The notes under the pieces are model-generated. The model saw only the letters and a list, made by a program, of their open reading frames with translations. It was not told the DNA's origin and did not search any database. From NCBI GenBank assembly GCA_014382375.1, contig JACNJU010000065.1, forward strand, positions 1-64,000: a stretch of 64,000 nt of DNA, written 5' to 3'. The stretch comes from Rhodospirillaceae bacterium. Its GTDB lineage: Bacteria; Pseudomonadota; Alphaproteobacteria; Rhodospirillales; JABHCV01. The position numbers and the translations under genes were made by a program. Positions 15,929 through 38,681 of the stretch are shown here, piece after piece (positions within the stretch are counted from its first letter, which is position 1; each line of letters starts with the position of its first letter).

Positions 15929-17445
15929 TGGCTGATACACATGAAACCATCACCGGCAACCGTGGCCTGCAATTGGAAGAATCCCTGATTTTCGAGCAGA
16001 GCTCCGAAGGTCGACTGGGCGTCGATCTTGCTGAGCCTCCGCATGTGGAAAACCGTCTTGGCGGGTTGGAACGCGAAGGTCCTATTGGCCTTCCCGATCT
16101 GTCCGAGCCGCAAACCGTGCGCCATTACACCCGTATCAGCCAAAACAACTACGGCATCGATAGCGGCTTCTACCCGTTGGGATCGTGCACCATGAAGCAC
16201 AATCCCCGCCTCAACGAGAAAGTGGCCCGCCTACCGGGCTTTGCCTCCTTGCACCCCTTGCAACCGGTTTCGACGACACAAGGGGCGCTTGAACTGATCG
16301 ATGCCTGTGCCCATTGGCTGAAAGTCATTTGCGGGATGCCAGCCGTCGCCATGTCTCCGGCAGCAGGTGCCCAAGGTGAACTGTGCGGCATGATGGCCAT
16401 TCGCGCTGCTCTTGAGGATCGCGGTGACGTACGCAAGCGTGTGCTTGTTCCCGAATCCGCACACGGCACCAACCCGGCGACGGCGGCGGCTTGCGGCTAC
16501 GCCGTTGACACCATTCCGGCAAATGAGCGGGGGCGTGTCGATTTCGACGCTTTCGTGGCCAAGCTCGACACCGATGTCGCCGGTATCATGCTGACCAACC
16601 CCAACACCTGCGGCCTGTTTGAAACCGACATCATCAAAATCGCCGATGCCATCCACGATGCCGGAGGTTTCTTTTATTGCGACGGGGCCAACCTGAACGC
16701 CATTATGGGCCGGGTCCGTCCCGGCGACCTTGGCGTCGACTGTATGCACATCAACCTGCACAAGACATTCTCTACCCCCCACGGTGGTGGCGGCCCCGGT
16801 GCCGGTCCTGTGGTGCTGTCCGAAGCGCTGGCAGACTACGCCCCACTGCCCTTTGTTACCCATGGTGAGGACGGCTTCGATCTTGTTGAACACAAGACCG
16901 GCAAAGCCGCCAAGGCATTTGGCAGGCTCAAGGGTTTCCATGGCCAAATGGGTATGTTCATCCGCTCACTGGCCTTCATGATGAGCCATGGCGGTGACGG
17001 CATCAGGCAGGCCAGCGCCGACGCCGTGCTCAACGCCAACTACTTGCTGGCCGAATTGAAGGACACCTTGAGCCCGTCCTTCGATGGACCGTGTATGCAC
17101 GAGGCCCTGTTCGACGATTCATTCCTTAAGGATACCGACGTTTCCACCCTGGACTTCGCCAAGGCGATGATCGACGAGGGCTTCCACCCCATGACCATGT
17201 ACTTCCCGCTGGTCGTCCACGGGGCGCTGCTGATGGAACCGACAGAATCAGAAAGCAAGGAAACCCTGGATCAATACATTGACGCCTTGAAGGGCCTTAC
17301 GGCCAAGGCCAAGGCCGGCGACGCCGCCTATTTCCATGACGCGCCAAGGTTGACGCCGCGTCGCCGTCTCGACGAAACCTCAGCCGCCAGGAACCCGATC
17401 CTGCGCTGGAGGCCACCCGTTGATGAGGCGGAGGCGGCGGAGTAG
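15928..17445 (+). CDS. gcvPB: Glycine dehydrogenase (decarboxylating) subunit 2
   Basis: C-terminal, PLP-binding half of the split glycine dehydrogenase. The PLP lysine is in HINLHKTFSTPHGGGGPG, around residue 280. Other marks are the GSCTMKHNPR segment and the SAHGTNPATAA motif. At 505 residues it has the usual length. The ATG shares one base with the gcvPA stop (TAATG), implying coupled synthesis of the two halves. Confidence 0.96.
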   Translation: MADTHETITGNRGLQLEESLIFEQSSEGRLGVDLAEPPHVENRLGGLEREGPIGLPDLSEPQTVRHYTRISQNNYGIDSGFYPLGSCTMKHNPRLNEKVARLPGFASLHPLQPVSTTQGALELIDACAHWLKVICGMPAVAMSPAAGAQGELCGMMAIRAALEDRGDVRKRVLVPESAHGTNPATAAACGYAVDTIPANERGRVDFDAFVAKLDTDVAGIMLTNPNTCGLFETDIIKIADAIHDAGGFFYCDGANLNAIMGRVRPGDLGVDCMHINLHKTFSTPHGGGGPGAGPVVLSEALADYAPLPFVTHGEDGFDLVEHKTGKAAKAFGRLKGFHGQMGMFIRSLAFMMSHGGDGIRQASADAVLNANYLLAELKDTLSPSFDGPCMHEALFDDSFLKDTDVSTLDFAKAMIDEGFHPMTMYFPLVVHGALLMEPTESESKETLDQYIDALKGLTAKAKAGDAAYFHDAPRLTPRRRLDETSAARNPILRWRPPVDEAEAAE

Positions 17446-23690: not shown

Positions 23691-23978
23691 AACGGCACCT
23701 TTTATTAAGAACTAGTCCAATTACTATATTAGTATTACTTAATGTATTTAAATAAGTCGCGCCGAGAACAGCCACTAGCGCCTACCTGACAAGGTAGTGT
23801 GTATCCTCCTCACAGAAGCAGTAGTAATTGATGACACTTTTATACTAAGGTGCATCCGAATCATTTAAGAAGTTATGTGCTGAGGACTGATTATTGATCA
23901 CCATTACTATATTATCAAATTCTAATATTGCGACTAACTTGCGCCGTATTGCGAACTCCCATCTTGAGAGTGTCGTTC
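23691..23978. other. AT-rich intergenic region upstream of the alternative complex III operon
   Basis: About 288 bases, markedly richer in A and T than its surroundings, with no convincing reading frame. It must hold the promoter of the actA operon. I see several TATTAT/TATAAT-like stretches (around 23720-23750 and 23900-23930) but no single pair I would defend, and no complete TTGA-N6-TCAA box. Confidence 0.5.
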
Positions 23979-24677
23979 GTGAAGGTTGAAGCGAAAACCT
24001 GCCACGAACAAACCCACCGTCCGTTGTTCACGTGGACACGGATGTGGGCTGTACTCGTGCTTGCCGGGCTGCTGGGCGGACTGTCGCTATCAGGCTCGTC
24101 TTCCGCTGGCGAACTTATGGCGCCGCCACGTGTCCATACGCCGCCGGGCGCAGCCGACAGCGCGGATGAACCGCTGGGGCCGTTCCCCGGCGTTGTCGCC
24201 CCCGAAGGCACATACGAAGGCAAGAATGTCGAACAACCGATCGAATTTCCCCATGACCTTCACGCCGACACCAACAAGATCAATTGCCTGTACTGCCACA
24301 CCTACGCACGCCGTAGCGCGGTTGCCGGAATTCCGCCAACGTCCAAATGTATGGGCTGTCACAACGTTATCGCCACGGATCGCCCGCGCATCAAGAAGCT
24401 GACGGAATATTGGGAAAAGGGCGAGTCGCCACCGTGGAAAAAGGTCCATGACCTTCCCGATTATGTCCGCTTCACCCATGAGAGGCATTTAAAGAAGTTC
24501 CTGTTCGACAATCCTGACATGTCCGTCGAGCGCGTCGACGAGGTCTGCGCCCTGTGTCACGGGAACGTCAAGAAAATGACCGTGGCCAGGAAGCAAAAAC
24601 CCCTGACCATGGGATTCTGCACCCGCTGTCACGAGGCCAATGACGGCCCCTTCGATTGCCAGAAGTGTCACAAGTAG
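23979..24677 (+). CDS. actA: Alternative complex III subunit A, pentaheme cytochrome c
   Basis: Periplasmic electron-carrying subunit of the quinol:cytochrome c/oxidase complex ACIII. From GTG 23979 the protein has 232 residues: one N-terminal membrane helix (WAVLVLAGLLGGLSLSG) and five CxxCH haem motifs, in order CLYCH, CMGCH, CALCH, CTRCH and CQKCH. The start is uncertain: TTGAGAG lies eight bases ahead of the GTG, and an in-frame TTG at 23928 also exists. Gene order after it (B1, B2, C, D, E, F) confirms the assignment. Confidence 0.85.
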   Translation: MKVEAKTCHEQTHRPLFTWTRMWAVLVLAGLLGGLSLSGSSSAGELMAPPRVHTPPGAADSADEPLGPFPGVVAPEGTYEGKNVEQPIEFPHDLHADTNKINCLYCHTYARRSAVAGIPPTSKCMGCHNVIATDRPRIKKLTEYWEKGESPPWKKVHDLPDYVRFTHERHLKKFLFDNPDMSVERVDEVCALCHGNVKKMTVARKQKPLTMGFCTRCHEANDGPFDCQKCHK

Positions 24678-24694
24678 AGTGTTTTAGAGGAAGT

Positions 24695-26932
24695 ATGTCG
24701 GCAATGAGCAAAATCGAATTCGATCGCAGGGATTTTCTCAAAGTTATGGGCGTCAGTGGTGTCGCCGCCACCGTTGCCGGTTGCGATATGCCTTCCTACA
24801 TCACCTCTGAAGAAGGTGCCGAAGAAGTCATCCCCTACCTGTCGCCAGAGGAATTCGTTATTCCCGGTGTCGGCGTCCACTACGCCTCGACCTGTCTGCA
24901 ATGTCCGGCAACATGTGGTATCCGGGGCCGTGTTCGCGAAGGCCGGGTATTGAAACTTGAGGGCAATCCGAAGAGCGCCCTGAACACCGGCAAGTTGTGC
25001 CAGATGGGCCAGGCCGGATTGCAGACCCACTATAACCCGGACCGCCTGACAAAGCCGCTGGTTCGCAAGGACGGCGCGCTTGCTGAGGCCACCTGGGAAG
25101 ACGCCCTGGCCCTGATAGAAGAAAAAACCGGCCCGTCTTCAGGGCTCTCGGGGGGCCGCTTCGCCTGGCTTACCGGCACCATCAGCGGCCATCAGAGCGT
25201 TCTTCTGAAGGCCCACCTGGAAAGCCTTGGCTCTTCCAGTCATTTTGTCCACGAGGTCATTAACACCAGGGTCTGGCAAGCCGTCTGCCAGGATATGCTG
25301 GGTCAATCCATGCCCCGCTTGCGCATCGACAAGGCAAAAATGGTGTTGTCCTTCGGTGCCGATTTCCTGGGCACCTGGATGTCACCCATTCACTTCTCCG
25401 CCGACTATGCCAGGTTCCGCTCAGGCGAAGACCGCGGCATGCTGGTGCAGGCAGAACCATCGATGTCGCTGACCGGTGCCAACGCTGATCTGTGGGTTGC
25501 CCTGCGCCCCGGCACCGAAGGCGTGATGGCGCTGGGACTGGCAAATGTCCTGATTAACAAGGAACGCATGGATGCATCGGCCCTGCCCGCCGCCGCCCTG
25601 GAACTGATCAATCAATACGGCGTTTCAAGAACCACCAAGATGACTGGCATCGCCGGTGATCGCCTGATCCGCATTGCCCGGCACCTGAAAGAACGCTCGC
25701 CCAGTCTTGTGCTTGCTGGTGCTTCGGCGGCGGGTCACGTTGGTGGCTATCAGTCCGTACAAGCGGCGATGTTGTTGAATATCCTGCTTGGCAATATTGA
25801 TCAAACCATCGAAGCCAGTGGCGATTTCGCTTTGCCGCAACTGGCGTCGGTAAGCGGTGGCACGTCGGATTTGAGCCGTTTCGCCGATGCTGCCGGGGCC
25901 GGGAAGCTCGATGCCGTCTTCTTTGATGGCAGCAACCCGCTTTTCGCCGCCCCAAACCACCTTGGCTTGACCGAAAAATTCGACAGCATCCCCTTCAAGG
26001 TCGCCTTTAGCCAGTTCATGGACGAAACCACGGCCCACGCCGACGTCGTCCTGCCCATGGCATCGGCGCTTGAGGATTGGGGAACCCATGTCGCGGCTTA
26101 TCAGGGTGGAGATCACGAAATCGCCTTCCAGCAGCCGCTGATGGAGCCAATTTATCCAGGCACCCGCAGTTTTGGTGACATGTTGCTAGCCCTCAATTCC
26201 ATGCGCAACCCCGGTTCCTATGACGGACTGGAAGATTACTACGGCTATCTGCAAAGCGCTGTCGGATCAATCCCCGGCGTCCTCAAGGGTGAGGATGATG
26301 AAGCCATCAACGTCAGTGCCTGGAACCGGATATTGCAAGACGGCCGTCTGCAAATGCCGGTAGACACCAGGGCTTTCACCAGCAACCTTTCCATGGACGA
26401 CATGGACGTCAGGGACGCCGACCCCGCGTTTCCATATTATCTGGTGCCGACCCCGCGCGGCACTCTTTACGACGGACGCCACGCCAACATACCGTGGCTG
26501 CAGGAATCACCCGACCAGATCAGTAAAGTGGTGTGGAACTCGTGGGCCGAAATCCACCCGGTTACCGCCGCCAAGCTGGCTGTCGAGGAAGGGGACGTCA
26601 TCACAGTCACAACCCCGGACGGTGTCCTTGAAGTCCCCGTCTACATTCATAAAGGCATTCATGTTGACGTTGTCGCCGTGCCCATGGGACAGGGTCACGA
26701 GGACTATGGCCGCTACGCCAGGGGACGCGGCGTCAACCCGTTGAAAATCCTTCAGCCCGGCAGTGACGCCAAAACCGGCGAACTGGCCCTGTACGGTAGC
26801 CGGGCGGCGCTTGCCGCCACAGGACGCGCCGGTCGCCTGATCAAAATGGGCAACACTGAAACACAACACGGTCGCAAGATTGTCGCCACCATCACCGCCG
26901 AACAACAACGGCGCAACGAAGGAGACTCTTAA
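24695..26932 (+). CDS. actB1: Alternative complex III subunit B, molybdopterin-oxidoreductase-like half
   Basis: A 745-residue member of the molybdopterin oxidoreductase superfamily. It opens with a Tat signal (RRDFLKVMGVSGVAATVAGC, with a lipobox-like Cys). A [4Fe-4S]-type motif CLQCPATC with a fourth Cys in KLCQMG lies at about residues 67-110. The FLGTWMSPIHFSADYA segment is typical of ActB. In structurally known ACIII this domain carries no molybdenum cofactor, so its role here is probably structural or electron-relay. In many ACIII operons this half is fused to the ferredoxin half; here they are separate, three bases apart. Confidence 0.85.
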   Translation: MSAMSKIEFDRRDFLKVMGVSGVAATVAGCDMPSYITSEEGAEEVIPYLSPEEFVIPGVGVHYASTCLQCPATCGIRGRVREGRVLKLEGNPKSALNTGKLCQMGQAGLQTHYNPDRLTKPLVRKDGALAEATWEDALALIEEKTGPSSGLSGGRFAWLTGTISGHQSVLLKAHLESLGSSSHFVHEVINTRVWQAVCQDMLGQSMPRLRIDKAKMVLSFGADFLGTWMSPIHFSADYARFRSGEDRGMLVQAEPSMSLTGANADLWVALRPGTEGVMALGLANVLINKERMDASALPAAALELINQYGVSRTTKMTGIAGDRLIRIARHLKERSPSLVLAGASAAGHVGGYQSVQAAMLLNILLGNIDQTIEASGDFALPQLASVSGGTSDLSRFADAAGAGKLDAVFFDGSNPLFAAPNHLGLTEKFDSIPFKVAFSQFMDETTAHADVVLPMASALEDWGTHVAAYQGGDHEIAFQQPLMEPIYPGTRSFGDMLLALNSMRNPGSYDGLEDYYGYLQSAVGSIPGVLKGEDDEAINVSAWNRILQDGRLQMPVDTRAFTSNLSMDDMDVRDADPAFPYYLVPTPRGTLYDGRHANIPWLQESPDQISKVVWNSWAEIHPVTAAKLAVEEGDVITVTTPDGVLEVPVYIHKGIHVDVVAVPMGQGHEDYGRYARGRGVNPLKILQPGSDAKTGELALYGSRAALAATGRAGRLIKMGNTETQHGRKIVATITAEQQRRNEGDS

Positions 26933-26935
26933 GCA

Positions 26936-27787
26936 ATGTCTCTCGTCAGAAACTTTATCGAAGACTGGTCGCGTTACCGCAGAAGCATCGACGAAGGTGG
27001 CTTCCACGAATATGAACACATGTGGGGCATGGTCATCGATCTTGATAAATGCACCGGTTGCAATGCCTGTTCGGTGGCCTGTTACGCCGAAAACAACCTG
27101 GCCGTGGTTGGCGAGGACAAGTTCGAAAACGGACAGGGTATGCACTGGATGCGCATCGAACGTTATTGGGACGAGCCAAACATTGGCAACGAGCGGGTTC
27201 GCGACACCCAGGAACACGGCGCTTCGTTCATGCCGATGATGTGCCAGCAGTGTAATTCAGCGACCTGCGAGCCGGTTTGTCCGGTTTCTGCCGCTTATCA
27301 CACCCCTGATGGCCTTAACGCCCAGATTTATAACCGCTGTGTCGGTTCGCGTTACTGCGCCAACAACTGCCCGTATCGTCTGCGTTATTTCAATTTCTTC
27401 TCTTATTATGAAGACAGTTGGCCTTCGCCGCTGGACATGCAATTGAACCCGGACATTACCGTGCGCGACAAGGGCGTTATGGAAAAGTGTACCTTCTGTG
27501 TTCAGCGCATCAGGTCCACCAAAAACGCCGCCAAGATGGAAGACCGTCAGGTTGTCGATGGCGAAGTGCAAACGGCGTGTCAACAAACCTGCCCGACCTC
27601 GGCGATTGTTTTTGGCGATCTTCTTGATCATGAAAGCGACGTTCACAAGCTTTGGCATAAACACCAAACCCGCCTTGGTACGACGAAGCAGAAAAAAGAT
27701 AACCCTGAATTACGCGGATACAGGCTCTACGAACAACTCAATACCGAGCCTTCCGTCACTTACCTGGAACGGGTGCGAGACGTTTAA
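26936..27787 (+). CDS. actB2: Alternative complex III subunit B, four-cluster ferredoxin half
   Basis: A 283-residue iron-sulfur protein carrying four cysteine sets: CTGCNACSVAC, CQQCNSATCEPVCP, CVGSRYCANNCPY and CTFCVQRIRS...CQQTCP. This pattern, with the RYCANNCPYR spacing, is typical of the ActB ferredoxin domain and related CISM ferredoxins. It should wire the NrfD-like membrane subunit to the pentaheme ActA. It has no export signal of its own and probably travels with the Tat-bearing ActB1. The stop overlaps the actC start by one base (TAATG). Confidence 0.88.
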   Translation: MSLVRNFIEDWSRYRRSIDEGGFHEYEHMWGMVIDLDKCTGCNACSVACYAENNLAVVGEDKFENGQGMHWMRIERYWDEPNIGNERVRDTQEHGASFMPMMCQQCNSATCEPVCPVSAAYHTPDGLNAQIYNRCVGSRYCANNCPYRLRYFNFFSYYEDSWPSPLDMQLNPDITVRDKGVMEKCTFCVQRIRSTKNAAKMEDRQVVDGEVQTACQQTCPTSAIVFGDLLDHESDVHKLWHKHQTRLGTTKQKKDNPELRGYRLYEQLNTEPSVTYLERVRDV

Positions 27788-29223
27788 TGGCTGAGGAAAC
27801 ACACTTAAGCGCGACCAAGGATATCGACGAGAAAATCGCCTGGGCGGAGATCAACTCCGATGTCCTTAGAAGTATGGAAAATCCGCGCATGGGTTACTGG
27901 CTGGCGGTCGTCGTCAGTATCTGCATGTTAATGGTCGGCGTCGCTTCGGAAGTTTACCAGTACAACGTCGGCATGGGTCCGGCCCAGTTGAACAATCCAC
28001 ACATGTGGGATTTGTATATCTCGACATTTGTCTTCTGGATTGGCATGAGCCACTCAGGTACGTTGTTGTCGGCTATTTTGCATTTGTTCCACGCCGACTG
28101 GCGCAAGCCCATCTACCGCTTTGCCGAAGCCATGACCACGTTCTCGCTGATGACGGCTCTCGTCTTCCCGATCATTCACTTAGGGAGGGTCTGGAACATG
28201 CACTGGGTCATTCCTTATTACAGTGACCGCGGTATCTGGCCGAATTTCAGATCACCCCTGGTCTGGGACGCCTTCGCCATCACCACGTACCTGACCGGAT
28301 CGGTGCTGTTCCTGTACATCGGCATGATCCCTGATCTGGCGATTTGCCGTGATAACGCCATCGGTTGGCGCAAACGCCTGTATACATTCATGTCCGTCGG
28401 CTGGCGCGGTGACGACCGGCAGTGGCGCAACTTCCGCAAAACCTATCTTCTGATGGCCTGTTTCCTGATCCCGCTGGCGGTGTCCGTGCACTCCATCGTT
28501 GCCGCCGATTTCGCCATGGCGATCATGCCGGGCTGGCACGTCACCTCGTTCCCGCCCTACTTTGTTTCCGGCGCCCTGTATTCTGGTTGTGCGGCGATTA
28601 TTACCCTGTTCGTGCTGCTGCGGTATTTCTTCAAGTTCGAGCAGTACATGACCCTGCCGATCTTGGATAAGACCTGCAAACTGACCTTCGCCATTGCCAT
28701 GGTCTGGTCCTATTTGAACCTGATCGAGTTCGCTTCGGTCTGGTACGGCCATGATATTCCGGCCAAGGAAGTGCTGATCGCCAAGTTCACCGGCCCCTAC
28801 TCACCGTTCTTCCTGGGCATGTTGTTCTGCGGTTCGGTGCTGCCCTTTACCCTGGCTTTCGAGAAAATCCGCCGCAACCCGATGTTGCTGCTGCCGATTT
28901 CCATTTTCCTGAACGTCGGCATGTGGCTGGAACGTTACATGATCGTCGCCCCCACCCTGTCCCTGGCCTATCACCCCTGGAGCTGGGATGTCATGTGGCC
29001 GGGCTGGGTAGAGTGGGGCATTGTCTTTGGTAGTTTCGGCTGGTTTGGCCTGCTGTTCCTTATCTTCGTCAAGGTGTTCCCGTCGGTGTCCATGTACGAG
29101 GTCAAGGAAATGGTCTACCACCGTCGCCGGGTGGTTTATGAAGATGCCGAACTGAGAGCCCACGAGTACAAGAAGGGCGCTTCGGGTGCCAGTAGCGCCG
29201 CACCGGCGACGGAGGGCTCATAG
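27787..29223 (+). CDS. actC: Alternative complex III subunit C, NrfD/PsrC-type quinone-binding membrane protein
   Basis: A 478-residue integral membrane protein with about ten helices. NPRMGYWLAV near the start, then FWIGMSHSGTLLSAILHLF and the HLGRVWNMHW segment contain the conserved polar and His residues expected around the quinol site. It oxidises quinol and passes electrons to ActB2. It starts with one base shared with actB2. Confidence 0.9.
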   Translation: MAEETHLSATKDIDEKIAWAEINSDVLRSMENPRMGYWLAVVVSICMLMVGVASEVYQYNVGMGPAQLNNPHMWDLYISTFVFWIGMSHSGTLLSAILHLFHADWRKPIYRFAEAMTTFSLMTALVFPIIHLGRVWNMHWVIPYYSDRGIWPNFRSPLVWDAFAITTYLTGSVLFLYIGMIPDLAICRDNAIGWRKRLYTFMSVGWRGDDRQWRNFRKTYLLMACFLIPLAVSVHSIVAADFAMAIMPGWHVTSFPPYFVSGALYSGCAAIITLFVLLRYFFKFEQYMTLPILDKTCKLTFAIAMVWSYLNLIEFASVWYGHDIPAKEVLIAKFTGPYSPFFLGMLFCGSVLPFTLAFEKIRRNPMLLLPISIFLNVGMWLERYMIVAPTLSLAYHPWSWDVMWPGWVEWGIVFGSFGWFGLLFLIFVKVFPSVSMYEVKEMVYHRRRVVYEDAELRAHEYKKGASGASSAAPATEGS

Positions 29224-29227
29224 AATC

Positions 29228-29773
29228 ATGGCCAGGAAAACACCTAAGAAAAGACTGCTCGGACTGTTTGGCGATTTTGAACAGGCGATCAAGGTGATTA
29301 TCGATATCCGCCAATATGAAATTCCCGGCGTCAGTGTCGACAATATCACCATCAAATCCCCGATCGAACATCCCGAAATTGAGGAAATCCTTGGCGACCG
29401 GCCCTGCCATGTGTCCAAATTTACCTTGTCGGGTGCCCTGTTCGGCTTGATTTTCGGCGCCTTTTTCCTGGCGGCGGCCCAGGCCAACTTCCTGATCCAG
29501 CCGCAAGGCGGCAAGCCGGTTATCACCATCACATCTAACCTTGTGCTGATTTACGAAATGCTGATCCTGTTCGGAATGCTGGCGACCTTTGTCGGCTTCC
29601 TGTTCGGTGCCGGCCTGATGCGCAAGCGCTCGACCCTCGATGATGAAATGATCAGTCTTGATCAGGTCGGCATCGTTATCGAAGTTGAAGATGAAAACAT
29701 CGACCCGGTCAGGCAATTGTTTGAGAAACACCATGTGCTCGAGATCAGGGACAGGGAGCTAAAGGACCAATGA
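29228..29773 (+). CDS. actD: Alternative complex III subunit D (DUF3341)
   Basis: A 181-residue protein. The N-terminal cytoplasmic part (LLGLFGDFEQAIKVI, then EHPEIEEILG) is typical of DUF3341. Two membrane helices follow, near residues 64-88 and 103-127. It is an accessory membrane subunit of ACIII with no known redox group. GGAGGG at 29211 lies ahead of ATG 29228. It overlaps actE by four bases. Confidence 0.88.
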   Translation: MARKTPKKRLLGLFGDFEQAIKVIIDIRQYEIPGVSVDNITIKSPIEHPEIEEILGDRPCHVSKFTLSGALFGLIFGAFFLAAAQANFLIQPQGGKPVITITSNLVLIYEMLILFGMLATFVGFLFGAGLMRKRSTLDDEMISLDQVGIVIEVEDENIDPVRQLFEKHHVLEIRDRELKDQ

Positions 29774-30345
29774 GACAGCTTTTCCCTGCCCCGTTGGCGT
29801 TTGCCTGCCTGATGCTCGCCGCTGCCGCCCTGTACGCGCCAACCCCGGCCAACGCCTGGCCCTGGTCGACCGATATGATGAACCAGCCAAACTTTAAACC
29901 GCAGGAAGGCCCCATGCGTCCTTTCCCCCGGCGCTCGGTTCCCGTTACCGGCATTCCGACGGAAATTACCGACCGTGATGCGGCCGAGGAAATGAGCAAC
30001 CCCTACCCGGCCAACCCGGCATCAATCAAAACCGGGCGGACCTTGTTTAAAATCTATTGTTCTGCCTGTCACGGCATCACCGGCCGCGGTGATACCCCTG
30101 TCGCCGATCTGATCGGCACAGTTGATTTGACCGACCCCGATATGGTCGGCGACCTGACGGACGGCTGGATCTTTGGCACCATCACATTCGGCAGCGCCAT
30201 TATGCCCGCTTACGGCGTCCCTAACGAAGAAGGGGAATATCGCGGATCTAACGATTTGAACGTCGAGGAACGCTGGCATGTGGTCAATTACATCCGCAAT
30301 GGCCTGGTCGCCGATGCCAATATGCACGAGGCGGCGGCAAAATGA
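29770..30345 (+). CDS. actE: Alternative complex III subunit E, monohaem cytochrome c
   Basis: A 191-residue exported cytochrome with a signal peptide (1-29, ending ANA) and a single CSACH haem site in IYCSACHGITGRGDTP. The FGSAIMPAYGV segment offers the axial Met. It is the terminal electron-accepting haem subunit of ACIII. It starts inside the actD stop (ATGA). Confidence 0.88.
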   Translation: MRQLFPAPLAFACLMLAAAALYAPTPANAWPWSTDMMNQPNFKPQEGPMRPFPRRSVPVTGIPTEITDRDAAEEMSNPYPANPASIKTGRTLFKIYCSACHGITGRGDTPVADLIGTVDLTDPDMVGDLTDGWIFGTITFGSAIMPAYGVPNEEGEYRGSNDLNVEERWHVVNYIRNGLVADANMHEAAAK

Positions 30346-30383
30346 TGGAAACATACTTTTTTAACGAAATGAGCGCCTGAACC

Positions 30384-31427
30384 ATGGAAGATTTCGGTAG
30401 CTGGTCGATCATCACGACGAATTTCCTGATTGTTCTCTATCTGGCTTTGGGGGGCATAATCCTTTCGTCATTGCTGCATCTGGTTAACGCCAAATGGCGC
30501 TTTCAGGTCCGCTGGCTGGCCTGCGCCAATATGGCGTTATTCCCCGTTGCCTTCGTCTTGTTGCTGATTTTGCTGTCAAACGGCGAGGCCACATTCCCGT
30601 GGCTGGCGAGCGCCCATAACGAAGATGTGCACCTGCCGGGATGGCAAAACTATACTTTCCTGGTGATCCGCGAGATTGGCGGTTTTATCATCACCTTCGG
30701 TTTCTGTTACGCCTTTGTCAAATTGCAGAAACAGGCCGACATCGACCCGACGCCGGTAGTCCAGCGCCGCTTCCGCAATGTGGCGCTGACGATTCCCTTC
30801 GTTTACGTCATCTATGGCAGCATGATCGCCTGGGACTTTGAAATGACCATGGAAGCCGGATGGCACAGCGCCAGCTACGCGGCCTATCAGTTTCAAAGTA
30901 ATTTCCATGGCTTCCTCGCCTATTTTGTCCTGATGCTCTACGTCATGGACAAGACAGGTCACATGAAAGACGACTTCGAGCGCAAAATTTACAACTATCT
31001 GGCCCAGCTTATTCTTGGCATGACCATTTTGTGGATTTACTTCTACTTCACCCAGTACCTGGTTTTCTGGTATGGTCGCCTGCCCTTTGAAATGGACCGC
31101 TTTAATCGCATGTTCGAAGGCGGTTACTTCCCGCTTATAGCGCTTTTCCTGACCTTCAAGTTCATTATCCCGTTCTGTACCTTTATCTTCACCCCGGCCC
31201 GCCACAGCCGTCCGACTGTGGCTATCGTGGCGATATTCATTCTTGCCGGGACATGGCTTGAACGCTACGTCTGGATTTCAGGGTCCGTTTCCAGCCGGTA
31301 TTTTCACACCCCCCTGTCAAGCTCCTTTGACCTGCTGGTCACCGGCCTGATCATGGTTGCCGTGTTCATGTCACTGAGATGGCGACTGAACCGTGACAAT
31401 CTGCTCAAAAACCGTCACGCCGTTTGA
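30384..31427 (+). CDS. actF: Alternative complex III subunit F, NrfD-like membrane protein
   Basis: A 347-residue polytopic membrane protein with eight to ten helices. Its position after actE and the pattern HLVNAKWRFQVRW...FFYFTQYLVFWYGRLPFE fit ActF, the second NrfD-like subunit. It is shorter than many ActF proteins, which run to about 400 residues, so some peripheral part may be missing. No strong ribosome site is visible. Its 3' end overlaps the convergent trmL by 13 bases. No terminal oxidase gene follows. Confidence 0.78.
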   Translation: MEDFGSWSIITTNFLIVLYLALGGIILSSLLHLVNAKWRFQVRWLACANMALFPVAFVLLLILLSNGEATFPWLASAHNEDVHLPGWQNYTFLVIREIGGFIITFGFCYAFVKLQKQADIDPTPVVQRRFRNVALTIPFVYVIYGSMIAWDFEMTMEAGWHSASYAAYQFQSNFHGFLAYFVLMLYVMDKTGHMKDDFERKIYNYLAQLILGMTILWIYFYFTQYLVFWYGRLPFEMDRFNRMFEGGYFPLIALFLTFKFIIPFCTFIFTPARHSRPTVAIVAIFILAGTWLERYVWISGSVSSRYFHTPLSSSFDLLVTGLIMVAVFMSLRWRLNRDNLLKNRHAV

Positions 31428-31861
31428 CGCAAGCCTTCACCTAAAACCATGGCAGCCGCGATGGCGACGTTGAGCGAGCGCGCGCTGCGGGCCATCGGCA
31501 CCCTCAATTGCGCATGGGCGGCGGCGAAAACATCATCAGGAACCCCGGCACTTTCACGTCCGACCATGATGATGTCATCGGGCTGGAAAGAAAAATCCGT
31601 GTAAACGGTTTCAGCTTTCGTCGATAGCAGCACAAGCCGCACACCCTGAGCGTCTAGCGCCTGCTTGAAGACATCCCACGAAGAATGCCGGGTAACGTCC
31701 GCATCTTGCAGATAATCCATACCGGCGCGTTTTAACTGCCTGTCTGAAAAAACGAACCCGCAGGGCTCGATAATATCGACGGCCATATCAAGACACATGG
31801 CCGTGCGCAGCAAAGTGCCGGTATTTTGTGGAATATCCGGCTGATAGAGGGCGAGACGCAT
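31415..31861 (-). CDS. trmL: tRNA (cytidine/uridine-34 2'-O)-methyltransferase
   Basis: SPOUT methyltransferase modifying the wobble position of tRNA-Leu isoacceptors. The 148-residue protein has YQPDIPQNTGTLLRT at the start, the AdoMet knot segment VGRESAGVPDDV, and the final RSLNVAIAAAMVLGE. The start at 31861 is the family start; an in-frame upstream codon at 31939 adds unsupported residues. It sits alone between the ACIII and bc1 operons on the opposite strand. Confidence 0.93.
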   Translation of the reverse strand: MRLALYQPDIPQNTGTLLRTAMCLDMAVDIIEPCGFVFSDRQLKRAGMDYLQDADVTRHSSWDVFKQALDAQGVRLVLLSTKAETVYTDFSFQPDDIIMVGRESAGVPDDVFAAAHAQLRVPMARSARSLNVAIAAAMVLGEGLRQTA

Positions 31862-32041
31862 GTTTTTTTCATTCTGACTGTAATAATTGATCAATGTTAA
31901 GGCATAATGCACGAAAGACCTGATTTTATCCCTTTGCATCCAGGATTGTATTGATTATACCCTTCTGCCAATCTAGGGCGCGCGCCCGATAACAAGTTCA
32001 GATTTAAATCGTCCCGAACGGATACCCAAGAGGTTCTTTGC

Positions 32042-32596
32042 ATGACAGACCAAGCAAGTGACGACACGGCAAACCCGGAAGAAAGCACCAGCCGACGTGA
32101 TTTTCTGCAAATAGCCACCTACACGGTCGGTGCTGTTGGCGCTGGCTTGGCCGTCTGGCCAATTGTTGACAGCATTAACCCGCCTGCCGATGTTCTCGCC
32201 CTTTCATCGACAGAAGTTGATCTTTCACCAGTCGAAGTCGGACAGAGCATCACCGTTATCTGGCGGGGCCGTCCGGTTTTCGTTCGCCACCGCTCTGAAA
32301 AGGAAATCGAGGAATCAAGGGCCGTGCCCCTGGACGCCATGCCCGACCCGCAAAAAGATGAAGATCGCACGCAAAAGGCTGAATGGCTGATTATGGTCGG
32401 TATCTGCACCCACCTGGGCTGCATTCCAAACGGCCAGCGGCCAACCGATCCCAAGGGAGACTTCGGCGGCTGGTTCTGCCCTTGTCACGGCTCGCACTAT
32501 GATTTGTCAGGACGCATTCGCAAGGGCCCGGCCCCGACAAACCTTGAGATTCCGGCCTATGAATTTAGCGACGATACAACCGTCAAAATCGGCTAA
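32042..32596 (+). CDS. petA: Ubiquinol-cytochrome c reductase iron-sulfur (Rieske) subunit
   Basis: Transfers an electron from ubiquinol to cytochrome c1. The 184-residue protein has a Tat-type RRDFLQ motif and a membrane anchor at residues 19-45. The [2Fe-2S] ligands are in CTHLGC (C122, H124) and CPCHGSH (C146, H149), with the disulfide Cys 127 and 148. It is the first gene of petABC, twelve bases ahead of petB. Confidence 0.96.
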
Positions 32597-32608
32597 GGGA
32601 AAAATAAA

Positions 32609-33838
32609 ATGAAACTCTCAAAATCCATCATTTTGCCCTTTCTTGACTGGGTTGATTACCGTTTGCCGGTGTTTTCCTATGCACGGCATAACCTGATTGA
32701 TTATCCGACACCAAAGAACCTTAACTACTGGTGGAATTTCGGATCACTGGCCGGCATCGTCCTGATGATCATGATTATTACCGGGTTTTTCCTTGCCATT
32801 AACTACACCCCGCACACCGATTACGCCTTTTCCAGCGTCGAGCACCTGATGCGCGACGTTAACTACGGCTGGTTACTACGCTTTATGCACGCCAACGGCG
32901 GGTCCATGTTCTTCATCCTGGTCTACATCCACATGTTCCGTGGCCTGTATTTTGGCTCTTTCAAGGCACCGCGCGAATTATTGTGGATCATCGGCGTCGT
33001 CATTTACCTGGCCATGATGGGCACCGCCTTCATGGGCTACGTGTTACCGTGGGGACAGATGAGCTACTGGGGTGCGACCGTTATCACCAGCCTGTTTTCC
33101 GCCGTGCCGCTTATCGGCGACACCATCGTCACCTGGTTGTGGGGTGGCTTCGTCATCGATAACAACACCCTGACCCGCTTCTTCGTCGGCCACTACCTGA
33201 TGCCGATGGTTATTTTCATGCTGGTCATCGTTCACATGTGGGCCTTGCATCAGCATAAGTCGAACAACCCGCTGGGCGTCGATATGAGAACCCCGGCCGA
33301 CAGCATTCCGTTCCATCCTTATTACACCATCAAGGATATGGTCGGCATGGGCGTGTTCTTTATCGTCTACTTTGGCTTTGTCTTCTTCGCCCCCGACTTC
33401 TTCGGCGAACCCGACAACTATATCGAGGCCAATCCACTGGTAACACCGCCGCACATTGTGCCCGAATGGTACTTCCTGCCGTTCTACGCAATCCTGCGTT
33501 CCATCGACAATAAACTGATTGGCGTTATCGCCATGTTTGCCGGCGTTTGCATCCTGTTCGCCCTGCCGTGGATGGATCGCTGCCGGGTTCGTAGCGCCAA
33601 GTTCCGGCCAATTTACCGGCAATTTTTCTGGCTGTTCTTTGCCGATTGCATACTGCTTGGCTATATCGGCGCGCAGACTGCGGTCGAGCCGTTTGTCACC
33701 ATCGGCCGTATCGCCACGGCTTATTATTTTGCCCACTTCCTGATTATCTGTCCGCTGATCTGCAAGTTTGAGCGCCCCCTGGTGCCGCCAGAGAGCATCA
33801 GTGCGGGTGTTCTAAAAGCCCAGAAGGGAGCCGAATGA
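32609..33838 (+). CDS. petB: Cytochrome b of the bc1 complex
   Basis: A 409-residue, eight-helix diheme cytochrome b. The haem-binding histidines are in [16 protein letters not shown] and the [22 protein letters not shown] helices. The Qo-site PEWY motif is present in [15 protein letters not shown]. It overlaps petC at the stop/start (ATGA). Confidence 0.96.
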
Positions 33839-34626
33839 TGAGCATCAGCATGAAGCTTTCGCGCACCCTTGGCACCGCATTTACCGGTCTCTTGCTTGCC
33901 GCAGCGATCAGCACAACAGCCCAGGCTTCTGGCGACAGCGTCAAGCTGGAAAAACAGGACTGGTCCTTCAATGGTATTTTCGGCACCTATGACAGAGGCG
34001 CCCTGAAACGCGGTTATCAGATTTATTCAGAAGTCTGCGTCAGCTGCCATTCGCTGAATTACGTCGCCTATCGCAATTTGATGGATATTGGCTTCGAAGA
34101 AGATAACGTCAAGGAAATCGCCGCCGAGTTCGAGGTCGAGGACGGCCCCAATGACGAAGGTGAAATGTACCTGCGCCCGGCCCGTCCGTCGGACCGCTTT
34201 GTCGCCCCTTACGCCAACGAGAAAGCCTCCCGTGCGGCCAACAACGGCGCCTTCCCCCCTGATTTGTCACTGATGGTGAAAGCCCGCAAGGGTGGACCAG
34301 ACTACCTTTATGGCCTTCTCACCCGCTATCAGGAAGAAGCGCCCGATGGCATGGAACTGGCTGATGGAATGTCTTATAACGAGGTCTTCCCAGGCCATCA
34401 AATCGCCATGGCCCAGCCCCTGGATGACGACGCGGTGGAATACGAGGACGGCACGCCTGCGACACTGGTACAGCACGCAAAAGACGTCACCACCTTCCTG
34501 GCCTGGGCTGCAAGCCCGGAAATGGAGCAACGCAAACGTCTTGGCATCAAGGTCATGTTGTTCCTGTTCGTGTGGACAGGCATGTTGATCGCGCTAAAGA
34601 AAAAAATCTGGGCCAAACTGCACTAG
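33835..34626 (+). CDS. petC: Cytochrome c1
   Basis: A 263-residue haem subunit of bc1. It has a signal peptide (to about residue 32, TAQASG), a single CVSCH haem site followed by [11 protein letters not shown], the typical [16 protein letters not shown] and [12 protein letters not shown] segments, the axial Met region, and a C-terminal membrane anchor ([14 protein letters not shown]). Either ATG 33835 or 33838 can start it. It completes a full three-subunit bc1 complex beside the ACIII operon. Confidence 0.95.
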
Positions 34627-34642: not shown

Positions 34643-35047
34643 TTAGTTGTTCAGGGCACCCCGGTTAATCCAACGGCGGAGCATCAGCTTTTCCCACTTT
34701 GTCAGGTCTTTGCGACCGCCGTGGGGCATCTTCAGCATGGCGTCGGCGCGTCCTTCGATCAGCACCATCATGTTGCTTGAGAATGCGTCACCCGGAACGA
34801 TGATAGGGCCATATTCAGTTCCCTTCATCAGGCTTTCATAGGTGCGCATGTCCAGGCCGCTTTTATCGAACCCCTCCTGGCCGGGAACATGACATTCCAG
34901 ACAATGCTCTTTCAAGATCGGCATGACCTCGGCTTTAAAGGTGGCGTGATCGGCGTGCGCACTGGTCGCCATAACCAGCCCGACTAACCCGGCCCCAAGC
35001 AAAAGTCCTTTCGGAAAACATAGAAAACCTGATTTCCGTTTAAACAT
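34643..35047 (-). CDS. PSD1-type monohaem cytochrome c
   Basis: A 134-residue exported protein: basic start and hydrophobic signal (residues 15-32, ending SAHA), then a single CLECH haem site in ILKEHCLECHVPGQ, followed by SGLDMRTYESLMKG and the closing MLRRWINRGALNN. This layout matches the planctomycete-type cytochrome c domain (PSD1). It is the last gene of a leftward operon with a NrfD-like protein, ferredoxin and two further cytochromes, and is probably an electron carrier for that module. Confidence 0.8.
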   Translation of the reverse strand: MFKRKSGFLCFPKGLLLGAGLVGLVMATSAHADHATFKAEVMPILKEHCLECHVPGQEGFDKSGLDMRTYESLMKGTEYGPIIVPGDAFSSNMMVLIEGRADAMLKMPHGGRKDLTKWEKLMLRRWINRGALNN

Positions 35048-35088
35048 ATCGACCTCCTTTCGCTTTCTACGTCCCCCTTTTCCAGCCC

Positions 35089-36294
35089 TTACATGGAAGC
35101 TCGTTTTGGTTCCGTATCCATACTCTTGCCTTCAAAGATCGGAATGAAACGGCTGATTATGTAATACGTCACAAAGGGCGCGACCATGATGATCCCGGCC
35201 GTCAGCAACCCTTCCTTGGCAAAAAATTCAAACTCGTAATCAACGAAACCACGTTCGGATTTTGAAATCAACTGACCGCCGACAACAACGTTGAAACGCA
35301 TGACCAGCACCTGAAAGACCAGCATCAGGCTGCCCAGGTTGCCCAGATAAAGCAGGGCCTTATCCTTGATATCCAGTAGCGAGGCGATGCCAAGCACCAG
35401 CAACGGTCCCAGCGACAGAATACCCATCTGGCCAAGCACATAAGAGTTATACAATGGCCCCATCAGCAGCGGCTTGATAACGGCCCAGTGGGCGCCTTGC
35501 TCGTAACCGACAAAGGCGATTTCCAGAACTTCCAGCGCGTAGTCCAGAATGAACGCCATCCACAAGGTGATGATGAACTTCTTGATCAGGGCGTAATCAT
35601 AGCCTTGTCCGCGCCGCCACATGATGAAGCTGTACATGAGAAACATCATGGCGATCCCGCTGACAATGGCCGATGACAGGAAAATAAACGGCTGCAGCGC
35701 CGTCGCCCACCAGGCGACCGCCTTCACCGAACCGAACACAAAGCCCACATAACCATGCAGCAAACAGGCCCAGGGAATACCGATGCCGGCCAGGAACTTG
35801 GCTAGTTTTTTATCGAAATGCGCCGATTCGGGATTGTAGGTGGTAATGCCCAGGCACAGGATCTTCCAGAAGATCGCCATGTTTCCGACGGTTTCGTTGG
35901 CTTTTTCGATGAACACCTTTCGGTAAATAACCCAGATTTCTATCATCAGAAGAACCAGATAACTTGAATACACGTAGCCGAAAATACTCATCGCCGATGT
36001 TGTGTGCGGTGTTGTGTATATCTGGTATGCCCGTTGTGGCTGGCCCAGATGAACCAGCAGGGGCATGGCCGCGAACAGACCAAAGCTAAACGCCGCAACA
36101 AGCGCAAAATTGGCAATCGGCTTGAACTCCTTGACCCCGAAGACGTGATACATGGAAGACAGAACAAAGGCACCCGCCACCAACCCGGTAATGTAGGGGT
36201 AGATGACAATCATGATCGACCAGGTGACATGGGCATTATTGGGAAAGATGTAATTGACCAGGGCTCCCCCTGGCAGTCCTATGGCTTCCATCAC
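35089..36294 (-). CDS. NrfD/PsrC/DsrP-type quinone-interacting membrane protein
   Basis: A 401-residue membrane protein with nine or ten helices. The YITGLVAGAFVLSSMYHVFG opening and LLVHLGQPQRAYQIY (conserved His and Gln near the quinone site) mark the NrfD family. Size and pairing with a Tat-exported ferredoxin resemble DsrP/DsrO. It should exchange electrons between the quinone pool and the ferredoxin encoded just upstream; its ATG region overlaps the ferredoxin stop (36291-36294). Confidence 0.87.
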   Translation of the reverse strand: MMEAIGLPGGALVNYIFPNNAHVTWSIMIVIYPYITGLVAGAFVLSSMYHVFGVKEFKPIANFALVAAFSFGLFAAMPLLVHLGQPQRAYQIYTTPHTTSAMSIFGYVYSSYLVLLMIEIWVIYRKVFIEKANETVGNMAIFWKILCLGITTYNPESAHFDKKLAKFLAGIGIPWACLLHGYVGFVFGSVKAVAWWATALQPFIFLSSAIVSGIAMMFLMYSFIMWRRGQGYDYALIKKFIITLWMAFILDYALEVLEIAFVGYEQGAHWAVIKPLLMGPLYNSYVLGQMGILSLGPLLVLGIASLLDIKDKALLYLGNLGSLMLVFQVLVMRFNVVVGGQLISKSERGFVDYEFEFFAKEGLLTAGIIMVAPFVTYYIISRFIPIFEGKSMDTEPKRASM

Positions 36295-37067
36295 ACAACC
36301 TCCCTTGGCAAGCCGATGTAGAAGCAGGTCGGATCGGTATGCATTTCAGGCTTCAAAACCATCCATTGGTCGGCTTCAAAGAGTTTCGAGACTTCACTGT
36401 CGATGTCATTGAGATCGCCAAACAACCGGGCCTTTTGCGGGCAAACGGTGACACAGGCAGGCAGCAGGCCCTTTTTCACCCGGTGATAGCACCAGGTGCA
36501 TTTATCAGATTTATGTTCGACGGGATTGATAAAGCGTGCCGCATAAGGACAGGCCTGGACGCAATAACCACAAGCCATGCAGTAATCCCGGTCAACCAGC
36601 ACGAACCCTTCCGGTGATTTAAAAGTCGCACCGACCGGGCAGACCTGAACACAGGGCGGGTTGTGACAGTGATTGCACATTTTGGGGACCGTCCGGCTAA
36701 GCTTAATGTTATCCCGGAACCGTTTGTTGAGCTGTTCAAAACCCTCAATCGCGCCCTTCGGCGAGTCGACATAGACGCCTTCTTCGCGGACCACATAGCG
36801 TTCGACCCAGGTGCGAAAATAATCCGTCGGCACACTGTTTTCACGCTTGCAGGCGCGCACACAGTTTCCGCAACCGATACACTTGCCGACATCGATGATG
36901 TAGGCATACTTGTGATCGGCATCATCCGCACGTTCAGTGCCACCGGTTTCCGGCCCGTGGGCCATCACCCCAGGCCCGAAAACCATCAGCACGGTTGCCG
37001 TTGCCGTCCCTTCGAGCAGACGCACCAGGAATTCCCGCCGGGAGTCAGGCATTTTCGAATTTTCCAT
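36291..37067 (-). CDS. Tat-exported four-cluster ferredoxin (DsrO/NrfC-like)
   Basis: A 258-residue periplasmic iron-sulfur protein. The twin-arginine signal is SRREFLVRLLEG at residues 9-20. Four clusters are implied by CIGCGNCVRAC, CNHCHNPPCVQVCP, CMACGYCVQACP and CTWCYHRVKKGLLPACVTVCP. It would bridge the NrfD-like membrane protein and the multihaem cytochrome encoded upstream. Start 37067 has AAAGGGAA ahead. No molybdenum or other catalytic subunit accompanies it. Confidence 0.9.
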   Translation of the reverse strand: MENSKMPDSRREFLVRLLEGTATATVLMVFGPGVMAHGPETGGTERADDADHKYAYIIDVGKCIGCGNCVRACKRENSVPTDYFRTWVERYVVREEGVYVDSPKGAIEGFEQLNKRFRDNIKLSRTVPKMCNHCHNPPCVQVCPVGATFKSPEGFVLVDRDYCMACGYCVQACPYAARFINPVEHKSDKCTWCYHRVKKGLLPACVTVCPQKARLFGDLNDIDSEVSKLFEADQWMVLKPEMHTDPTCFYIGLPREVV

Positions 37068-37109
37068 ATCGATTATTCCCTTTGCATCTTTTATGTGCTT
37101 TTGCATGGC

Positions 37110-37589
37110 CTAAGGTGTCGGATCATGCGGTGTGTGACAGGCGGTACAAATCATGTCGGGTTCAATTTCCTGATGTTCCTCGATCTTTTCCTTATCAAAC
37201 TGAGGGAAATTTGCAGGCTTGCTTACCTGCGCGTCATGACAATTCAGGCATTGCCAGCTTGAAGCGTCATCAACCACCGCATCCCCTATTTTTTCGCCTT
37301 CCTTGACATGGTCGGCAAGCGCCCCGTGGCATGATTCGCACGACAACGCCTGATGCCTGAATTCGGCAAGTTCCTGGTTTACCTCCTCGTGGCAGGTGAC
37401 GCAGGACTGATTGCCGCCATAAGCGGCCTCATAACTTGAATTGAGCGCCAGTGCGTCGCCACGGTACCAGTCCTTGTAATTCCAGCTTGATGGCGTCACC
37501 ACTTCCTTGATAACAAGGAAAGCGAAAAGAGCACCGACAAGGACCGCCACGAGTCGAACAATGTGAGCTTTGGGGCCTGGTAGCGACAT
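37110..37589 (-). CDS. Membrane-anchored tetraheme cytochrome c
   Basis: A 159-residue protein with an N-terminal helix (residues 10-30) likely retained as an anchor, then four CxxCH motifs: CVTCH, CESCH, CLNCH and CTACH. Spacing suggests a small NrfB/DsrJ-like electron-transfer cytochrome rather than an enzyme. The 37619 codon upstream is an alternative start; 37589 gives a cleaner signal-anchor. It lies between the class I cytochrome and the Tat ferredoxin. Confidence 0.85.
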   Translation of the reverse strand: MSLPGPKAHIVRLVAVLVGALFAFLVIKEVVTPSSWNYKDWYRGDALALNSSYEAAYGGNQSCVTCHEEVNQELAEFRHQALSCESCHGALADHVKEGEKIGDAVVDDASSWQCLNCHDAQVSKPANFPQFDKEKIEEHQEIEPDMICTACHTPHDPTP

Positions 37590-37628
37590 GGTTTTCTTCT
37601 CCCGGAAAAGCCGGTCCAAACAACAGTC

Positions 37629-38003
37629 TTACTTAAGGGTTTGCATGTAGGCGACAATGAGGGCGCGCTCGTCCTCTTTCTTCAGCTTGTAAGCCATTGT
37701 TTTGGCGCCAACGAATTTCTTCGGATTAGCCAGAAACTGGTCCATGTTCTGGGCATCCCAAACCACGTCAGAACCCTTTAAACCTTTATATTTAGCGAAA
37801 TCTGTCGATCCTGCCTTGCGACCGATAATGCCGGCCAGTGAAGGACCGTTCTTGTGCTTTCCAGCCTCTGTAGAGTGACAACTGCCACATCTTTTCTTGA
37901 AAAGTTTTTCACCCTCCTCTGCGTCGGCAAGGGCAATGGTAGAACTGGAAAAAAATGCCAGAACAAATAACCCGGATAGAATCGTCAGCCATGATTTATG
38001 CAT
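37629..38003 (-). CDS. Class I cytochrome c (c2/c550-like)
   Basis: A 124-residue periplasmic cytochrome: signal peptide (1-26, ending ALA), haem site CGSCHSTEAGKHKNGPSL, and axial Met in the GAKTMAYKL segment, the layout of mitochondrial-type cytochrome c. AGGAG lies eight bases ahead of ATG 38003. It heads the leftward five-gene operon, downstream of the FNR/FixK box at 38081. It could link this operon to bc1, ACIII or an oxidase. Confidence 0.92.
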   Translation of the reverse strand: MHKSWLTILSGLFVLAFFSSSTIALADAEEGEKLFKKRCGSCHSTEAGKHKNGPSLAGIIGRKAGSTDFAKYKGLKGSDVVWDAQNMDQFLANPKKFVGAKTMAYKLKKEDERALIVAYMQTLK

Positions 38004-38138: not shown

Positions 38139-38546
38139 TCAGGGGCTTGTTCCTTCGGCCTTTTCTTTGCGACCAAGCCACGGCATCAGCGCCGCCGCCG
38201 CAACGACATTTGTCGCCAGCGGCACCTTGTTGAGGTCACAGACTCTGTAGAAAGGAGAAATATCCGGCTGCCCCTCACCTGTGGCAAGCGGATCACGCAG
38301 AAAAAAGACCGCCCGGATAACCCCGGTCGTGCAAATCAACCCGCACAGATGTACTTCTGCCCCCTGCGAGATTGAATGAAGTGCGGAAACTTCCAGGCCC
38401 AGTTCCTTTTCAATAAGTGCGCCGGTTTCCTTCGTCGATAACAGGCGGTAGGATTCGAAAATTGGCCGATTGGCCTTGACCAGCTTGACCAGTTGATTTT
38501 CCATCCCCTCGTGGGCGATCAGAATCAGGGATTTAGCCGTCGTCAT
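38139..38546 (-). CDS. Methylglyoxal-synthase-like protein
   Basis: A 135-residue MGS-fold protein. SLILIAHEGMENQLV, the LSTKETGALI phosphate loop, FFLRDPL and VPLATNVVAAAAL follow the order of methylglyoxal synthase, which turns dihydroxyacetone phosphate into methylglyoxal. Compared with the E. coli enzyme as I remember it, the catalytic Asp 71 position is Glu and the His 98 position is Gly, while Asp 91 and Asp 101 are kept. Activity is therefore uncertain. Start 38546 is chosen over an in-frame ATG at 38651 that adds a non-family extension. It is divergent from an MFS gene. Confidence 0.72.
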   Translation of the reverse strand: MTTAKSLILIAHEGMENQLVKLVKANRPIFESYRLLSTKETGALIEKELGLEVSALHSISQGAEVHLCGLICTTGVIRAVFFLRDPLATGEGQPDISPFYRVCDLNKVPLATNVVAAAALMPWLGRKEKAEGTSP

Positions 38547-38681
38547 GGGATGGTCCCACAGTTCACAATTATTGTTACCAATACGAAAAATCCATTTTAT
38601 TGAAGGCTGTATTCTACTAAAAGGGTGCAAACTTTCCTTGATTATAGTCAAAGTTCCGCCTTAAACATTTCTGGACCCCCC

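Follow-up and report, generated by a model that had tools for sequence, protein, structure and literature searches.

Five open reading frames lie at positions 34,643 to 38,003 on the minus strand of the window, by which we mean the whole 64,000-nucleotide stretch of DNA analysed here. Reading of the ORFs and of the sequence verified the number, strand and order of the genes as an earlier note on this DNA had given them. In the order of transcription they encode a class I cytochrome c, a tetraheme cytochrome c, a ferredoxin, an NrfD-family membrane protein and a PSCyt1-type cytochrome c. They are separated by approximately 40 nt, 3 nt, a one-base overlap in which the ferredoxin and NrfD genes share one base (TGATG), and approximately 41 nt. 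Because of this close packing and the one-base overlap, the five genes are likely to form a single operon. No catalytic subunit is encoded within the operon or adjoining it, in agreement with the earlier note's description of a module that lacks one. The features of the locus and its surroundings are listed in Table 1.

Table 1 Features of the module and its neighbourhood in the window
Feature	Position	Strand	Remarks
Alternative complex III operon (ActA, B1, B2, C, D, E, F)	23928..31427	+	QrcA/B/C-like, NrfD, ActD, cytochrome c families
Cytochrome bc1 (petABC)	32042..34626	+	By sequence; convergent neighbour
PSCyt1-type monoheme cytochrome c	34643..35047	-	134 aa
NrfD-family membrane subunit, predicted ActC-like fold	35089..36294	-	Probable start ATG at 36291
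Tat-signal (RREFL) ferredoxin subunit, four [4Fe-4S] clusters	36291..37106	-	271 aa
Membrane-anchored tetraheme cytochrome c	37110..37589	-	159 aa
Class I (mitochondrial-type) monoheme cytochrome c	37629..38003	-	124 aa, signal peptide
FNR/FixK-type box TTGATCTAAGTCAA	38081..38094		78 nt upstream of cytochrome c start
Methylglyoxal-synthase-like gene (mgsA-like)	38139..38546	-	NF003559 87.8 bits, cut-off 84
Second FNR/FixK-type box	38638..38651		Upstream of mgsA-like gene

Pfam searches and cofactor motifs bore out the identities proposed earlier for the first four proteins. The class I cytochrome c matches Cytochrom_C (2.8e-13) and, with values to 6e-21, cytochromes c in the PDB; it is of the mitochondrial type. 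The tetraheme protein matches Cytochrom_c3_2 (4.2e-8; cytochrome c3/c7-type) and has four CXXCH motifs, all invariant in 10 homologs, as are H79, H94, H139 and H155, histidines that would be suited to bis-His heme ligation. An N-terminal membrane anchor, helix 6-31, was predicted confidently in a structure model of this protein with a mean pLDDT of 49, in which the anchor helix alone is usable and the rest is poor. The ferredoxin matches Fer4 families (6e-25, Pfam) and carries an RREFL Tat motif; 16 cysteines, enough for four [4Fe-4S] clusters, are invariant across 12 homologs. Among proteins of solved structure, its nearest relative is the iron-sulfur subunit of polysulfide reductase (2vpw, 1e-47). 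The last gene had been called PSD1; this label had to be corrected, since Pfam gives PSCyt1 (PF07635, 4.6e-10), a domain distinct from PSD1.

The membrane protein belongs to Pfam NrfD (2.1e-34), and neither the protein nor its profile matched any PDB entry by sequence. A structure model (pLDDT 76, pTM 0.79) was used for a fold search, in which the best match was ActC of alternative complex III, with Z 29-30 and an rmsd of 3.4-3.8 for 355-360 aligned residues, and with PsrC of polysulfide reductase at Z 19 over 242 residues. Quinone sites of NrfD-like subunits are marked by a serine and a histidine, aspartate or glutamate in TMH2 (PMC8076601). H82 and S100 of the module protein are invariant in its homologs and align with these positions, so that both the predicted fold and the quinone-site residues of an NrfD-family quinone-reactive complex are present. 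The likeness to NrfC/NrfD or DsrO/DsrP pointed out in the earlier note holds at the level of superfamilies and fails at the level of equivalogs: the ferredoxin scored 154 bits against the NrfC model (cut-off 377.6) and 179.6 bits against DsrO (cut-off 200), and the NrfD protein 45 bits against NrfD (cut-off 347.6) and 45.3 bits against DsrP (cut-off 350).

The module is flanked by other respiratory genes. A complete bc1 operon converges on it from 16 nt away, and a complete alternative complex III (ACIII) operon lies at a distance of 3.2 kb, beyond bc1 and TrmL; thus, three probable quinol:cytochrome c systems occur within 15 kb. The arrangement of module, bc1 and ACIII is kept in genomes G051 and G033, and bc1 adjoins the module in G113; among the loci read, bc1 genes adjoin it in L006, L020 and L024. 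The module of G069 stands beside cytochrome c oxidase genes (coxBACC). The mgsA-like gene on the other side also adjoins the module in L005, L006 and L020; it is a conserved neighbour outside the redox complex.

Homologs of the NrfD protein (E <= 1e-20) were found in nine of 150 sampled genomes of the order, many of them fragmented assemblies in which absence can be assembly loss, and were rare beyond it. With stricter cut-offs, a search of 385 genomes of the class found homologs in G201 and G504, and among 398 genomes of the phylum there were distant homologs in G725 and G781 (35-41% identity). In a plasmid collection the NrfD relatives were all distant, and the diheme and tetraheme proteins had none. 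Genes in the relatives' loci were called with a codon model. Every complete locus has the tetraheme-ferredoxin-NrfD core, and the surrounding cytochromes vary: class I and PSCyt1 cytochromes accompany the module in G000, G051, G033, G144, G008 and G113, diheme cytochromes with the motif RGGxLYDxW...WRCKECHGWDY are encoded at other loci, and a NapC/NirT protein at two. The module is conserved across several families at 38-95% identity and is therefore not a product of chance. Several of the alphaproteobacteria that bear it also carry reverse Dsr sulfur-oxidation genes.

According to the earlier note, steady linkage of the module to an Nrf- or Dsr-type reductase in relatives would have made it an ordinary system of that type. 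Such linkage was looked for, and no reductase was linked to the module in the loci read. A co-occurring catalytic gene was sought in the module genomes. PF02239 (cytochrome d1), a family that comprises NirS and relatives and also covers NirF and NirN, occurred in every one of the nine module genomes from the order and in 53 of the 141 genomes without the module (Fisher P 0.0002). These nine positives are few and related; stratification by family, a rough calculation on members with a visible family only, gave P of about 0.01. Direct reading showed a protein of NirS length in G000, G051, G033, G504, G008 and G009, G504 being a case from outside the order, and a contig-end fragment in G069. PF02239 had no match in G201 (87% complete, with the module) or in G725 and G781, which have the distant homologs. 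Since nirS is common in genomes without the module, nirS is not sufficient for its presence; the two were never adjacent in the loci read, and in G051 about 48 kb separate them on a single contig. Other candidate partners were rejected: none of the nine module genomes has NrfA (PF02335), DsrA showed no significant enrichment (6/9 vs 54/141), and NirK and NosZ each occur in a single module genome (1/9 vs 21/141 and 1/9 vs 47/141, respectively).

The cytochromes around the module recur around nirS. Within one to three genes of nirS there is a gene for the RGGxLYDxW diheme protein in G005, G006, G008, G015 and G065 and a NapC/NirT gene in G005 and G006, and a NirT-containing protein follows nirS in G009; in G033 and G069 the RGGxLYDxW diheme and NapC/NirT families are both found next to the module. 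Beside the module of G009 is a PSCyt-type diheme protein about 75% identical to those beside nirS in G005, G006 and G015; both of its halves are homologous to the window's PSCyt1 protein. By position only, the module-side and nirS-side diheme proteins may be termed "NirB-like". The 558-aa NirT-containing protein by nirS in G009 was considered as a NirT-NirB fusion and rejected as such, its C-terminal part matching neither the PSCyt-type nor the RGGxLYDxW diheme family.

FNR/FixK-type boxes were searched for with the strict motif TTGAYNNNNRTCAA. It occurs twice in the 64-kb window (38081 and 38638), as against 0.3 expected there, both times at the module operon, and 32 times genome-wide as against 5 in a reversed control. 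One strict box is situated 82 nt upstream of nirS, and others precede soxXA and a gene resembling nnrS by eye. The spacing of 78 nt before the cytochrome gene is found in G000, G051 and G144, and boxes stand ahead of the module run in these three as well as in G033, G069 and G504; the G051 locus (L020) has a box also at 16505. None was found at the module loci of G008, G009 and G113, and a promoter scan gave results at shuffle level. Judging from the motif, an FNR- or FixK-type protein may bind the module boxes, which would place the operon under such control in the cell.

Taken together, the gene content, cofactor motifs, predicted fold and quinone-site residues indicate that the module is very probably a quinol:cytochrome c conduit, as the earlier note had suggested. 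The same note had proposed a catalytic partner encoded elsewhere; the two options are compatible, and the second is supported by the co-occurrence with cytochrome cd1 nitrite reductase and by the cytochrome families common to nirS clusters. On balance, and by a narrow preference, we favour a low-oxygen conduit with NirS as its main acceptor. Quinol would be bound near the periplasmic face of the NrfD subunit and oxidised there, and the electrons would pass to the four clusters of the Tat-exported ferredoxin and on to the membrane-anchored tetraheme cytochrome, the subunits presumably assembling into a complex. The tetraheme protein would reduce small periplasmic cytochromes (class I c and PSCyt1, in relatives also NirT-like and diheme proteins), and these in turn would, at low oxygen, deliver electrons mainly to NirS, encoded elsewhere in the genome.

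The neighbourhood of the module lends itself to a different account, a general low-oxygen bypass of bc1 that would not be specially tied to NirS and would supply chiefly the terminal oxidases or the cytochrome c pool as a whole. Consistent with it, the module adjoins bc1 and ACIII in G000, G051 and G033, bc1 in G113 and coxBACC in G069, and its first gene encodes a mitochondrial-type cytochrome c. The association with nirS and the common NirT, diheme and PSCyt families are, however, unexpected under a bypass, and we hold it to be unlikely, though a serious alternative and the strongest of the rivals. Electrons might also run in reverse, periplasmic cytochromes (e.g. of Sox/Dsr sulfur oxidation) reducing quinone, possibly driven through NrfD by the proton gradient. 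QrcABCD runs toward quinone reduction according to the available part of one source (PMC13059093), and the genome encodes DsrA, DsrLJOP and the soxXA genes with an FNR box. The incomplete and non-significant occurrence of DsrA among the module genomes speaks against reverse flow. So does the potential of class I cytochrome c, normally too high to reduce ubiquinone without energy input, and reverse flow is improbable.

Least probable of all is that the proteins serve as the electron-transfer part of a known ammonifying nitrite, polysulfide, tetrathionate or sulfite reductase whose catalytic subunit lies elsewhere. Its attraction is that the ferredoxin is closest in sequence to TtrB/PsrB and that a PhsA/DmsA-like molybdoenzyme is encoded separately in the genome. 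That molybdoenzyme and the Dsr operons, however, have a ferredoxin and an NrfD protein of their own, every score fell below its family cut-off, NrfA is missing throughout the module genomes, and none of the loci read has such a reductase gene next to the module.

The new element in the preferred reading, a conduit that feeds NirS at low oxygen, is the probable partner itself; no description of the module together with nirS was found in the literature searched. The electron supply of denitrification is usually described as bc1 or NirT. More tentatively, and with the likelihood rather against it, the module may represent a third quinol route to cytochrome cd1 in alphaproteobacteria beside these two, in the form of an ion-translocating, ActC-like NrfD complex that conserves energy and is switched by FNR/FixK. 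If true, an energy-conserving quinol dehydrogenase would be added to denitrification, an otherwise orphan NrfD operon would gain a testable named partner, and the presence of three quinol:cytochrome c systems (bc1, ACIII and the module) in NirS bacteria mostly without NosZ would be explained in part.

Among known systems, NrfABCD and DsrMKJOP have the ferredoxin and NrfD superfamilies in common with the module, which differs from them in having neither NrfA, absent from the nine genomes as a whole, nor DsrMK, absent from the operon; a separate DsrJOP is on another contig. The linked molybdopterin catalytic subunit of Psr/Ttr-type enzymes is missing from the operon, and none of the loci read has one alongside the module. 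The likeness to ACIII is closer, in that the module NrfD has the ActC fold in its model and keeps the TMH2 histidine, and both systems would send quinol electrons to cytochrome c. The module operon nevertheless has no ActA pentaheme, molybdopterin-like ActB1, ActD or ActF, the complete ACIII set being the separate one listed in Table 1. Ferredoxin/NrfD quinol dehydrogenases free of a catalytic subunit are known, as far as the available text of the sources goes, from Geobacter (CbcSTU) and Shewanella (SirCD) (PMC11434368, PMC10989804, PMC8524038). SirCD is described there as a ferredoxin and NrfD/PsrC-type quinol dehydrogenase able to feed several periplasmic pathways (PMC11434368, PMC8524038); it differs in being tied to the sulfite reductase SirA, and those portions describe no dedicated tetraheme anchor for it. 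CbcSTU (Cbc4), a proposed menaquinol:ferricytochrome c oxidoreductase, likewise consists of a four-heme cytochrome, a 4Fe-4S ferredoxin and an integral membrane subunit with no catalytic subunit (PMC11434368, PMC10989804). The module has this gene content (four-heme, ferredoxin and NrfD-like genes in one operon) in a comparison by description only, whereas CbcSTU comes from another phylum, serves metal reduction and, in the portions available, is described with no class I or PSCyt1 cytochrome genes. The nirSTB operons, finally, with NirT and NirB as electron donors of cytochrome cd1, resemble the module in that diheme and NapC/NirT cytochromes of nirS-side kinds adjoin it in relatives; NirT is a one-subunit NapC-type quinol dehydrogenase, whereas the module combines NrfD with a ferredoxin and a tetraheme cytochrome.

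The molybdoenzyme operon and the five-gene cytochrome module are found in one genome. The methylglyoxal-synthase-like gene next to the module carries its own FNR-type box, and this adjacency was observed in four genomes. A complete bc1 operon and a complete alternative complex III operon adjoin each other at window positions 23928-34626, with trmL between them; the order alternative complex III, trmL, bc1 was also found in two relatives.

Coordinates of features beside the module, beside nirS (cytochrome cd1 nitrite reductase gene) and elsewhere (L, contig)
Feature	Location	Setting
EB_dh-type cytochrome, NapC-like tetraheme, ferredoxin, NrfD and PhsA/DmsA-like molybdoenzyme operon	L027:7034-13303	
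Methylglyoxal-synthase-like gene and its FNR-type box	window 38139-38651	
RGGxLYDxW diheme domain, tandem arrays (4 and 8 hemes)	L023:7931-12045	adjoins module, genome G009
Cytochrome b-ferredoxin-FlpD fusion protein and 247-aa partner	L077:5267-7461	near nirS
Heme-copper oxidase subunit I, divergent	L077:2432-4126	adjoins nirS cluster

The oxidase subunit scores far below the aa3 and quinol oxidase cut-offs. An FNR box lies upstream of the fusion locus, and homologs are also encoded close to nirS in the sampled genomes G051, G008, G065 and G006.
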